From Fodinibius salicampi (lineage in GTDB: Bacteria > Bacteroidota > Rhodothermia > Balneolales > Balneolaceae), in contig NZ_BAABRS010000001.1 of the NCBI RefSeq assembly GCF_039545095.1, positions 620,001-684,000 on the forward strand: a stretch of DNA of 64,000 nt, given 5' to 3'. Shown here piece by piece: positions 2,647 through 22,754 of this stretch (position 1 is the first letter of the stretch; the number at the start of each line of letters is the position of its first letter). Below the pieces are notes generated by a model. That model did no database searches and was not told the origin of the DNA. It saw only the letters and a list, made by a program, of their open reading frames with translations. The translations under genes and the position numbers were made by a program.

Positions 2647-3300
2647 CTAGTGATAGATTAACTTAGTTCTGTGTCCTACCAATCCAAGCCCTGGATTCAC
2701 CTTTCTGTACCTAAACGGCTCGTTCTATTTTCAAGGCCGGAAATTAATTTTCCCCTTGTGGGAGGGTCGTAGAAAGGCTTTTGAATGCGAACTGAAGGGG
2801 GCATGGGCCCCGTGGAATGCCCATTTAGGGCCCGCTTTAGCGGATTCCATGGGGCAGGCTGAATAAATTTTGCCGACGTTCCCCGCGTCTGCGCTAACAG
2901 CCTACTGTTCATTTTTTTAATCATAAAAAAACGAACCAAAAAAATGACCGGCGATGAAAATGTTGCTGCCGTTTAGGGGCCTTCGTTAAAATCATTTAAA
3001 ACTCCTCCCGATGGTCGTCAGACAAAAATAATTTTTTACCACTACGGCCCCTGCACTTTTATCAGCAACATATTCAAAGGCCGGAGGATAGGCTACTTTG
3101 AAAGCGACAAAACTAACCCGGACCATTTCTGTTTGACGAGGGGCGGGCGGTGGCTGTTATCAACGCCACGGGCCGAAGTCCGCACCGAGGAGTTAAATGG
3201 TCCTAGCGTTTTTACGAGCCTTTTGGGGCAATGCCAAAAGGCGGAATAGAATTTAAGGGCTTGCCCGGGATAATGGATTCCTGCTTTTATTACCTGCAAT
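2647..3300. other. Non-coding island with strong predicted secondary structure
   Basis: No credible protein-coding gene is present: all frames are short, and the two longest minus-strand frames (2697-2939, 3093-3329) lack recognisable domains or ribosome sites. The DNA is instead packed with helices. Positions 2807-2855 form a three-way junction with an outer 12-bp stem (2807-2818 with 2844-2855) and two hairpins (GCCC-ATTTA-GGGC, 2819-2831; CCGC-TTTA-GCGG, 2832-2843) with no unpaired linker. Directly adjacent, AGGCTG at 2856-2861 pairs with CAGCCT at 2898-2903 and encloses GACG/CGTC at 2875-2889. A 13-bp stem with one mismatch follows at 2907-2936. Further hairpins lie at 3150-3169 (GTGGC/GCCAC) and 3218-3242 (GCCTTTTGG/CCAAAAGGC). 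This could be a structured RNA or a decayed repeat unit; the strand is unresolved. Confidence 0.5.
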
Positions 3301-3318
3301 TCAATTCTCCTAGTAAGC

Positions 3319-3466
3319 ACAGAGACCATGTCCTAGTAAGGGCAAAGACTCTGTCTTACTAAGGACAATCTCCCTGCTAAAGTATTACAAAGACTTTGTA
3401 AAGTAATGTCAGACACCTTGTAATAGTTTTACAATCTGTTTGCAATAGTAATGGCAAACACTTTCC
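3319..3466. repeat. Seven-unit degenerate dyad array, 22-23-bp period
   Basis: Seven 13-bp imperfect dyads start at 3319, 3342, 3365, 3387, 3409, 3431 and 3454, a spacing of 22 or 23 bp. The best copy is ACAAAGACTTTGT (3387-3399); others include GCAAAGACTCTGT and ACAATCTCCCTGC. The spacers mostly contain AGTAA or a close variant. The unit length and regular spacing argue for a true tandem array that has drifted. Confidence 0.6.
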
Positions 3467-3494
3467 CATATATATGAAAAATATAAACAACGCC

Positions 3495-4307: not shown

Positions 4308-5645
4308 ATGCCACAATTTCGATTGAAGGCTATTTCGGCTCAAGGCAAACCCATGCAGACGGAGTTTGAAGCCGATAGTAAAAAACAAGCACAGAATAAG
4401 GTAAACAGGCTTTCCAGTAAAAATGGTTTTGAAGTTAAAGCCATTCAAAAGAAAGAAACCTATGTTTATAAGGTTCAGCGCGGGACCAAAGATCCGGTGC
4501 AGGGCGAGCAAGAAGCCTATTCTAAAGAAGAACTTGAGCGGGCACTCGTTAAGCTCGGTTATAAGGTACATAGTATTAATAAAAAGTGGTTCGACTGGAA
4601 GGGAGGCGTACCTAAAAAAGATGTAGTTACCTTTATCCGTCTCTGTTCCGACCTTCTGCGTCAACAGCTGAGCTTTGATGAAATTCTGGTGCTACTGCAG
4701 GACGACACCCAGAATAAACGGCTTAAAGAGGTCATACGTACCATCCAAAAAGACTTAAAGGATGGAAAAGAAGGGGAAGAAGTATACGGTAAGCATAAGG
4801 ATGTGTTTGGTGAGTTTGCGGCCTATATGTTGAGTGTGGCTTCTACCAGTGGTAATATGGCTCAGGTATTTGAAAGCACGGCCAAGTTCCTGGAGCGCGA
4901 TGCGGAATTCAAGAAAAATCTGCGCCGCTCCCTGTTGATGCCGGGAATTACCGTGTTGGCAACGCTTGGAGTACTTCTCTTTTATGTGGGATATATTTTT
5001 CCTCTCACAGCCGAATTGTTTGTGGAAATGAATATTCAACTGCCACCCATGACGGCGGCAACGCTAGAGATGAGCTATTGGCTGCAGGACAACTGGATAA
5101 TGTTGACGTTGGCTTTTGTGACACCCATTGCAGGCTTTGTGTACTTTGTATCTACTCCCAAGGGCAGGCTTTGGTTTGATAAAAATATCATAAAAGTGCC
5201 CGTAATCGGTGATTTGATGCACAAAACCAGTATTGAGATATTTTCCAGGGTTTTCTATACCCTTTACAGCGGTTCCGGTGAAAATATTGAAGTAATAAAG
5301 ATAGCTGCTGAAGCCTGCCGTAATAAGTATATGGAAAAACAGATCAAGCAGGTCGCTATCAAAATGATGTTGAAAGAGGGAGCGGGGCTGGTGGAATCGC
5401 TAAAAGCGACCGGTGTATTTACAAATACGGCTATTAGCCGGTTCAAGTTGGGGGCAGAGTCGGGGGCCCTGCGCGAAAATGCCCATCAATTGGCACAGTA
5501 TTATGAAACACAAACCACTTATAAGATGGATAAGGTGGTGGATATGATTAATCTTTTTGTCAATATTTTTATAACGATTGCCCTTATTGTTATTACTATT
5601 ATTTCTTCTGAATCGGCTATTGTACAACCTGAATCGCGCTTTTAA
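4308..5645 (+). CDS. pilC: Type IV pilus / T2SS inner-membrane platform protein (PilC/GspF family)
   Basis: This 445-residue protein is the polytopic inner-membrane platform on which assembly ATPases act in type IV pili and type II secretion. Two T2SSF domains are visible. The first, around residues 108-235, starts VTFIRLCSDLLRQQLSF and ends in the hydrophobic segment ITVLATLGVLLFYVGYIFPL. The second, around 305-440, starts TSIEIFSRVFYTLYSGSGENI and ends in VNIFITIALIVITIIS. The N-terminus is unusual: the short motif normally found once (MPQFRLKAISAQGKPMQTEFEA) is followed by a second similar copy near residues 51-92 (YVYKVQRGTKDPVQGEQEA). It is the first gene of a co-oriented run encoding the rest of the machine. 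Confidence 0.9.
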   Translation: MPQFRLKAISAQGKPMQTEFEADSKKQAQNKVNRLSSKNGFEVKAIQKKETYVYKVQRGTKDPVQGEQEAYSKEELERALVKLGYKVHSINKKWFDWKGGVPKKDVVTFIRLCSDLLRQQLSFDEILVLLQDDTQNKRLKEVIRTIQKDLKDGKEGEEVYGKHKDVFGEFAAYMLSVASTSGNMAQVFESTAKFLERDAEFKKNLRRSLLMPGITVLATLGVLLFYVGYIFPLTAELFVEMNIQLPPMTAATLEMSYWLQDNWIMLTLAFVTPIAGFVYFVSTPKGRLWFDKNIIKVPVIGDLMHKTSIEIFSRVFYTLYSGSGENIEVIKIAAEACRNKYMEKQIKQVAIKMMLKEGAGLVESLKATGVFTNTAISRFKLGAESGALRENAHQLAQYYETQTTYKMDKVVDMINLFVNIFITIALIVITIISSESAIVQPESRF

Positions 5646-19483: not shown

Positions 19484-19506
19484 CGTTTAATGCGTTTTAA
19501 AATGGC

Positions 19507-19683
19507 CTAATAGGAATTGCTGCGAGTATAACTGGTGCAATTACCATTTTCTTTGCCATCTTTCTTACATTCTTCTTTGTCCTCAAATCCGCCATTGGAG
19601 TACGCTTCTATATCGCCGTTTTTGGCTGTTCTTCGCCATCTCCATTCTCCTTTGGCATCTTTATAAATTTCACATCTAGGCAT
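19507..19683 (-). CDS. Small DUF1508/YegP-like protein
   Basis: A 58-residue protein beginning MPRCEIYKDAKGEWRWRRTAKNGD. The pattern EIYKD-x-GEWRWR-x-AxNG...SNGGFEDKEEC is the DUF1508 (YegP) core: a short beta-beta-alpha module in which an aromatic/Arg strand is followed by an asparagine-glycine turn. The function is unknown in the family. The C-terminus (GKENGNCTSYTRSNSY) departs from the usual ending and carries an extra Cys. A terminator follows immediately, which supports a real transcript. Confidence 0.65.
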   Translation of the reverse strand: MPRCEIYKDAKGEWRWRRTAKNGDIEAYSNGGFEDKEECKKDGKENGNCTSYTRSNSY

Positions 19684-19834
19684 AAAAAGTGCTGTTCTTT
19701 TGGGTTATGTATTGACAATCATGCTTTTTAAAAAATAAACTGCATATATCTATTTACAAAAAAAATGTCTGTTTAATTCCGTGTTTTTGACAAACTAAAG
19801 CGTAATCCTAAACTATCCACTGATAGGGCATCTT

Positions 19835-20041
19835 TTAAGGTAGAAGCTTGAAATTATAATCCACATTTTCCTTTACTTCTATTCTTGGCAGATCTACCTG
19901 GGTATCGTTTTCTTCGGCCTCCTTCAAAAGAGCTTGGTGAAAATCTTTGGAAAGCAAAAGCCGGTGGTACTCAGTTCCTTCTTCGTAAATATAATCTGTA
20001 ATTGCATCACGCAGTCGGTTCATCTTTTCCATAACATTCAA
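19835..20041 (-). CDS. Hypothetical 68-residue protein
   Basis: A small, mostly helical, acidic protein (MEKMNRLRDAITDYIYEEGTEYHRLLLSKDFHQALLKEAEENDT) ending in a short strand-like segment. No family is recognised. There is no strong ribosome site; a second Met (codon 4) could be the start. Amphipathic helices and lack of low-complexity sequence make it more likely real than chance. Confidence 0.5.
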   Translation of the reverse strand: MNVMEKMNRLRDAITDYIYEEGTEYHRLLLSKDFHQALLKEAEENDTQVDLPRIEVKENVDYNFKLLP

Positions 20042-22239: not shown

Positions 22240-22446
22240 TTGACTCATACATATAGCTGTTTCAAGTTTACAATGCAGACCCACAACAGAACCTACTGAT
22301 TATAACTATGCACACTGGTTTTCCATGAAACCACTTTGGTGCCATTTATACATCGAAACTTTCCTCCGGAATGTTAACAACTTAGGCTAAATGTGGAAAA
22401 GTAATCGTTGACAATGAACGCCGAAGCTGTTTTCTTAAAAGTAAGA

Positions 22447-22628
22447 TTTAAAGGTGTCCCGACCACGGTCGGGGTGAAAAGGGAATCCGGTGATTCCTGA
22501 GAAGGAGAATCCGGAGCTGTTCCCGCAACTGTAATCCGATAGATTTCTTTGTTAAGCCACTGTCTCAGCCCCAAAAGAGATGGGAAGGATCAAGGAAATT
22601 TCGGTAAGCCAGGAGACCTGCCTTTAAA
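22447..22628 (+). ncRNA. Cobalamin (B12) riboswitch
   Basis: The conserved AdoCbl/MeCbl aptamer parts appear in order. The P1 strand TTTAAAGG (22447-22454) pairs with CCTTTAAA (22621-22628). AAAAGGGAATCCGGTG, AATCCGGAGCTGTTCCCGCAACTGTAA and GCCACTG follow, and GGTAAGCCAGGAGACCTGCC contains the B12 box. It sits 157 bp before metE, whose product makes methionine without B12. The expected action is repression of metE when cobalamin is plentiful. Confidence 0.95.
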
Positions 22629-22636
22629 TTGAGTAA

Positions 22637-22754
22637 ACGAGGCCTTCGGGAGTTAAGGCGTTGTTGAAAGACAGGAACGGCGTAGGTCTTCATTATGGTT
22701 TATGTGATATTTTTTATCTCCTGTCTTATCAACGTTTTAGCGTTCTCACCTCGT
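22637..22754 (+). promoter_or_regulatory. Riboswitch expression-platform hairpin
   Basis: ACGAGG (22637-22642) pairs with CCTCGT (22749-22754). Inside it GTTGAAAGACAGGA (22663-22676) pairs with TCCTGTCTTATCAAC (22719-22733) with one bulge. The long hairpin links the aptamer to the metE leader and probably switches between forms. There is no terminator T run after it, so control may act at translation. Confidence 0.5.

Follow-up and report, generated by a model that had tools for sequence, protein, structure and literature searches.

A dispersed double-hairpin palindrome in Fodinibius that looks like a very small mobile DNA element

What kind of sequence occupies the densely folded interval found between two genes of Fodinibius salicampi? 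The window considered here is a stretch of 64,000 nucleotides (C1:620001-684000 of the 3.94-Mb genome), and the interval lies inside a 1.9-kb gap in which no convincing gene was recognised when the open reading frames were read by eye. From the reading of the frames, this gap is bordered on one side by a gene resembling that of the sulfate adenylyltransferase large subunit (1086-2378) and on the other by a PilC/GspF-like gene (4308-5645). An earlier note, made from the letters of the window, described positions 2807-2936 as a gap-free three-way junction followed by further stacked helices, and offered a structured RNA, a cruciform or part of a palindromic mobile element as possible readings. 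Below, genomes, contigs and loci are given by G, C and L numbers where they must be told apart (G000 is the own genome and G007 is that of F. salsisoli).

The junction itself folds as the note had drawn it. On the plus strand, the 5′ arm (2807-2818, GCCCCGTGGAAT) pairs with the 3′ arm (2844-2855, ATTCCATGGGGC) in a 12-bp outer stem that encloses, with zero linker bases, two 4-bp hairpins: P2, of the G type (2819-2831, GCCC-ATTTA-GGGC), and P3, of the C type (2832-2843, CCGC-TTTA-GCGG). The single wobble of the junction is a G-U on the plus strand, at 2812/2850. Folded as RNA, the 49 bases reach a minimum free energy of -32.6 kcal/mol (z -5.5), and folded as DNA, one of -18.8 kcal/mol (z -5.4); in neither case was any of 200 shuffles equally stable. 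Thus, the claim that such a density of helices is unlikely by chance holds for the 49-base junction (z about -5.5), but the wider stretch from 2795 to 2925 is far less exceptional, its z value being -2.4 for the plus strand, matched by 2/200 shuffles, and -1.6 for the minus strand, matched by 14/200.

The idea of one stacked structure does not survive comparison with related sequences, from which the interval is best described as a mosaic, with a junction, a truncated repeat and a pseudoknot of three different origins. To the left of the junction there is a piece of another dispersed repeat (2706-2803, plus strand, CCCCCTT..AAGGGGGC), which provides the left flank and shows 71-82% similarity to copies in L081, L082, L254 and L078, whose continuation differs. 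To its right, the body of a class-I pseudoknot repeat is represented by a truncated 5′ portion (2854-2897, plus strand, GGCTGAATAAATT..CGCTAA), which matches L121 and L101 at 82% and L038 at 79% and has no pseudoknot to its left. The two halves of the next helix in the note, AGGCTG (2856-2861) and CAGCCT (2898-2903), are both present on the plus strand, but their pairing is probably fortuitous, because it spans the truncated end of this other repeat, whose matches reach no further than 2897 and leave out the 3′ half. The last helix, a 13-bp stem with one mismatch (2907-2919/2924-2936), is real, but it is stem 1 of an H-type pseudoknot (2907-2948, probably on the minus strand; stem 2 at 2921-2924/2944-2947) that belongs to a separate repeat family and is followed by its own class-I body (2949-3084, with no strand assigned, CGGCGATGAAAATGTTGCTG..CAGCAACATATTCAAAGGCCGG). 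Its mismatch is an A·C, which is a G·U on the minus strand, as the note had said, and this inner pair recurs in 57 of the 67 forward-read pseudoknot cores. Additional dispersed repeats are found in the gap at 2495-2685, 3098-3252 and 3290-3475, with several copies in clusters of the own genome (C2:210-216k, 275-285k and 308-314k; C4:273-276k).

The neighbouring pseudoknot repeat (2907-3084 in the window; L156, L157, L158, L160 and others) carries its pseudoknot at one end, has alternative bodies and is patchily distributed across the phylum. Bodies of class I end in GCCGG, and those of class II, of about 160 bp (G021), end in GGACCCC. The pseudoknot is laid out as GTTC(C)A-T-tract, a loop, A-tract-C(G)GAAC, a C-A-tract and a tail complementary to the loop; for instance, CGACG/CGTCG, GTCAC/GTGAC and CTTGATC/GATCAAG are observed as loop and tail. 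A Watson-Crick helix of at least 4 bp joins loop and tail in 36 of 60 distinct pairs, while after exchange of the tails the mean was 6.6 and the highest count 15 (0/3000 exchanges reached 36). Triple-helix linkers are a feature of known pseudoknots and, by analogy, the U-rich linker of the minus strand could lie along the U-A stem in that way. The pattern occurs in 9 of 12 genomes of the genus (none with the reversed pattern as a control) and in 25 of the 394 genomes of a phylum sample (4 with the reversed pattern); six of these 25 belong to the genus, and the full core is readable in 10 of the other 19, some of the rest being unlike the motif. One IMG/VR viral contig has two copies of the motif, and in L125 and L041 a further small repeat (around CACTACTATGCC..GGCTTCGTAGCAC) is nested in pseudoknot repeats. 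As candidate partners of this repeat, TnpB (PF07282, above the cut-off in 0 of 15 genomes, with one weak match in G020) and a reverse transcriptase (PF00078, absent from G000, though matched in 10 of the 15 genomes) were rejected.

When the own genome was searched with positions 2780-2940, a second place was found for the junction at 84% identity, where both hairpins have other letters and are still paired. Sequence comparison indicates that the junction is a member of a palindromic family whose copies are dispersed in Fodinibius and one neighbouring genus. Twenty-three long copies were collected, which share the arm TGGAAT/ATTCCA with single changes (TGGAAT being near-invariant across the family), and the ends of the element read CCC(T/C)(T)GTGGAAT...ATTCCAC(A)AGGG, the outer stem of 10-12 bp representing terminal inverted repeats. 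Two forms are observed: a long one of 47-55 bp, with the two abutting hairpins, and a short one of about 31 bp, where GAGCTC replaces the hairpins. By comparison with the 22 other long copies and by its fold, the window copy is a long form with 47 bp between the family boundaries CCCC...GGGG (2808-2854, plus strand), oriented as the family consensus, that is, with the G-type hairpin first.

A covariance model built from five copies and run on 58 relatives gave matches with E<=1 in 10 of them, two of which were weak (E 0.03 and 0.5). Counting both strands, the model matched the own genome 14 times and that of F. salsisoli 26 times, the latter corresponding to 20 distinct places, weak and short forms included. 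A pattern of the arms that is blind to the hairpins (TGGAAT-N20-44-ATTCCA-N2-3-GG), used on 13 genomes with the reversed pattern as a control, matched G000 16 times and G007 27 times if overlapping readings are counted (0 and 1 for the control, respectively), and the others 0-13 times, mostly by chance as judged by eye (control 0-4). Among the 19 sites where the arms were matched on both strands, 15 have two abutting hairpins, two have one hairpin and two are probably due to chance. One clear copy is found in another genus of the same family (G013). As for the short form, a loose pattern matches 35 of 97 genomes, and only stretches with a GAGCTC-like core and the arms were retained, plus L203, giving nine accepted copies in G000, G007 and G008. 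A scan with one genome per species gave six short-form stretches, two of them from F. salsisoli. Of the others, L297 was rejected for its location in a long frame, and L293 and L298 because the arms are absent or the contig ends. Around position 4146 of L296, a groundwater Bacteroidetes MAG, there is a near-match with close arms (CCCGGTGGAAT..ATTCCACAGGG, inside a RecF-like frame as read by eye), which may be a genuine copy or chance. Phages and plasmids searched with positions 2795-2945 gave no match, and no description of the element was found among the open-access PMC papers listed by the searches, a literal motif search included.

Several observations make the family look mobile. Exact 4-bp direct repeats were found just outside the arms in 14 of 32 copies (23 long and nine short; L195 is without a definable boundary), and all are of the type CNNG: CAGG in seven copies, CCGG and CCTG in two each, and CTGG, CTTG and CCAG in one each. 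When the right flanks were swapped among copies, a mean of 4.3 and a maximum of 11 such repeats were obtained in 5000 trials, 14 never being reached; for real and shuffled flanks alike, a few boundary offsets were allowed and the best one was taken. The other 18 copies, including that of the window, have no exact 4-bp repeat, and some of the 14 have their target repeat in common and, hence, are not independent.

Additionally, two comparisons with unoccupied targets support a duplication of the target. When the site of L069 was rejoined with a single CCGG, the result aligned with no gap to uninterrupted pseudoknot repeats in what were counted as four other places of the same genome and one of G011; for the other 18 of the 19 junctions, no match spanning the joint was found among the loci compared. 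The target GGAGGA-CAGG-AGGATTG carries the element in L170, L172 and L190, and it is uninterrupted in L002, L036, L184 and L053, the last with a single changed letter. The occupied and unoccupied sites compared here belong to repeats and are not orthologous loci of sister strains; several copies suggest a preference for targets inside other palindromic repeats. A further copy (L178, in G003) is found in frame near the end of a gene resembling an NADPH-dependent F420 reductase (E 3.5e-26 with the npdG model, under the cut-off of that model), where it adds 57 bp (53 plus CTGG), that is, 19 residues. Without the insertion, the end of this gene would be DDWLAGWKILRN, and a Deinococcus homologue (37% identical, in a single distant comparison) ends in SSSWKFLA.

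The window copy differs in its surroundings. Its flanks come from two different repeats, the dispersed repeat at 2706-2803 on the left and the pseudoknot-repeat body at 2854-2897 on the right, and its 4-bp flanks agree in two of four letters at best, with no direct repeat. Consequently, this copy probably sits on a recombination junction, and the simplest account would be a recombination between two copies that had been inserted in different repeats. A related case is seen in G007:C9, where a long form (L184) and a short form (L203), separated by 3 kb, are flanked by the same repeat, an arrangement that a swap of the inner part could produce.

Considering the dispersed copies, the direct repeats, the unoccupied targets and the in-frame insertion, the palindromic mobile element is, among the three readings originally offered, the one that gained support. 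We estimate a probability of roughly 0.8 that positions 2808-2854 hold a non-autonomous mobile DNA element of very small size, in which a conserved outer palindrome surrounds either two hairpins or a GAGCTC core. Such an element would be mobilised in trans at the DNA level, by an enzyme for which its ends or the folded T shape are the recognition signal. The hairpins would stay paired while their letters drift, either by selection on the fold or by template-switch correction between the arms in single-stranded DNA, and later recombination between copies could have given rise to the hybrid flanks of the window copy.

Known systems share some of these characteristics. Bacterial MITEs are short, non-coding, dispersed sequences with terminal inverted repeats that duplicate their target, although 31-55 bp would be very small for a MITE. 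The Fodinibius element is likewise dispersed and has terminal inverted repeats and a fixed 4-bp duplication (14/32 copies) but, in contrast to MITEs, no partner insertion sequence with the same ends was found in 8 genomes, and its inner hairpins change letters and yet pair. The search for a partner used the 12-bp end, allowing one mismatch, with the matches read by eye; no transposase lying between two such ends was seen, and partners with shorter shared ends would be missed. An inverted pair at insertion-sequence distance in G003:C34 was taken as chance, since the frame between the ends reads as MscS-like and not as a transposase. Rickettsia palindromic elements can insert in frame into protein genes, and the 57-bp insertion of G003 resembles them in behaviour, in this one case. 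These elements are longer (about 100-150 bp) and their host is unrelated; moreover, only three of the 30 placed Fodinibius copies are in predicted frames, with one clear gene insertion. The inverted terminal repeat of AAV has the same T-shaped topology (A-B-B′-C-C′-A′), an analogy of shape only. An AAV-like flip/flop, in which the hairpins would change their orientation within the outer stem, was suspected from L068 and L069; it could not be shown once 19 copies had been set in a common orientation, and the idea was dropped.

In behaviour, the closest likeness appears to be with the GC clusters of yeast mitochondria and the double-hairpin elements of fungal mitochondria. The former are 42-nt, palindromic sequences with constrained stems and short flanking direct repeats that merge and shuffle (PMC4478555), and the latter have been suggested to be mobile hairpins of fungal mtDNA (mentioned in PMC5910586). 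Like GC42 and the double-hairpin elements of Allomyces, the Fodinibius element keeps its fold over its sequence, has short direct repeats and would shuffle units (as judged from the flanks of one copy); unlike them, it is found in the chromosome of a bacterium, with 4-bp CNNG repeats and a fixed outer stem that makes a three-way junction. It might be a bacterial counterpart of these elements, which would spread through recombination, capture of hairpins or copying assisted by an endonuclease, with no classical transposase, a reading that we consider rather doubtful. The size, the constraint on the fold and the direct repeats are as in GC42, which also merges and shuffles its units (PMC4478555), and the hybrid flanks of the window copy, the pair L184/L203 and the failure to find a partner transposase in 8 genomes would all fit it. 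By contrast, the CNNG repeats and the targets with a single 4-mer look like integration at a staggered cut, and the mitochondrial mechanism is itself unsettled (PMC4478555).

A broader version of the mobile-element reading may be put forward tentatively. It would be a new kind of minimal mobile DNA of bacteria, where the T-shaped fold, and not the sequence, is the cargo and the probable recognition signal. Some enzyme would integrate it with a 4-bp CNNG stagger, preferring sites at the base of hairpins within other repeats, and the element would act as a recombination node that shuffles such repeats, in parallel to the mitochondrial double-hairpin elements. The family gives an example of a probably mobile DNA element whose fold is kept over its sequence. 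The spread of very small palindromes is an old question, raised by mitochondrial GC clusters and Rickettsia palindromes; now that 23 long copies and unoccupied targets are available and a host, F. salsisoli, is in culture, it becomes testable in a bacterium.

A different possibility is that the T shape is transcribed and acts in RNA, for instance in end protection, in termination or as an sRNA, or as a cis-regulatory structure. The stability of the RNA fold and the covariation of the hairpins agree with this reading. The earlier note had proposed a covariance analysis and had counted the lack of covarying pairs against its own reading, and strong covariation is what was found. The 23 long copies were placed in one orientation and compared with 5000 shuffles; degenerate or one-hairpin copies (G000:C3:292205, L010, L047, G007:C15:2006, G007:C40:273321 and G005:C1:589332) and other weak model matches were left aside, while copies with hairpin mismatches, such as L173, L178, L193, L200, L202 and some others, were kept. 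In P2, 104 of 114 cells are paired, with 8 double-sided changes, and in P3, 124 of 131, with 27 double-sided changes; in both hairpins, 0/5000 shuffles were as good, for copies gathered in part by structure-aware tools and, hence, biased toward well-paired ones. The pairing of the inner arm (155/161 cells, matched by 2398 of the 5000 shuffles) is uninformative because the arm is near-constant.

Strong covariation alone, however, is no proof of RNA. A structured RNA would be expected to gather G·U pairs on its own strand. The stems of the 23 copies, taken together, hold 17 G·T against 11 A·C cells (binomial p 0.34), which favours neither strand. The absence of a strand bias would fit a cruciform or hairpin at the DNA level. 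In P3, most changes are from one Watson-Crick pair to another (27 double-sided changes versus 4 G·T cells), which would suit correction templated by the opposite arm in single-stranded DNA as well as selection on the DNA fold. The context of the copies is compatible with a role at 3′ ends: among the 30 of 32 copies that could be placed, 9 are convergent, 9 tandem, 1 divergent, 3 inside predicted frames and 8 unclassed, so that convergent and tandem neighbours account for 18 of the 19 copies with both neighbours classed. A TTTT is found within about 15 nt of an end in 6 of the 23 long copies, but not nearby in the other 17, several copies lie inside other repeats and one is in a coding frame. 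Since the wobbles have no strand bias and no Rfam match was found (only one at chance level, at 3341-3448, E 5), an RNA role for the junction is without support, and we regard it as unlikely.

Slightly less probable still is a palindrome of the REP/REPIN type, whose single-stranded hairpins would be the substrate by which a RAYT (Y1/HUH) transposase moves it. Recognition of hairpins would account for the conservation of the fold, Y1_Tnp genes were found in 4 of the 5 genomes searched, and the copy number is high in some genomes, as in REP palindromes, which are small (20-40 bp) and high-copy (PMC3733652). However, none of 15 Y1_Tnp loci in G000, G003, G007 and G013 was flanked by the palindrome of the element, and G011 has a copy but no Y1_Tnp match. 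The nearest approach is in L215, where a copy is about 1.5 kb from the Y1_Tnp gene, at the edge of the locus. RAYT-like genes in L216, L217, L220 and L223 are flanked by palindromes of their own, on both sides in L216 and L217. Moreover, by eye, the GTAG/CGTC tags of REP sequences given in PMC3733652 are not seen at the ends of the Fodinibius element. The 4-bp direct repeats are a further difference; to our knowledge, HUH transposition is not expected to yield 4-bp target duplications. Returning to a DNA element moved in trans, the moving enzyme may recognise less sequence than was searched for, or the fold, or be absent from these assemblies.

A chance fold in GC-rich junk, to which the mosaic of broken repeats and the only moderate excess of the wider stretch over shuffles might point, can be dismissed, as it is refuted by 22 further copies with the same architecture and by the 0/200 shuffles for the 49 bases.

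Elsewhere in the window, a cobalamin riboswitch is recognised at 22435-22639 (117.5 bits). A small ORF resembling a four-helix bundle (of the S23 type, by eye) lies at 646-1008, between the genes for both sulfate adenylyltransferase subunits, and an ORF that resembles it by eye is found in L081, at 19486-19851.
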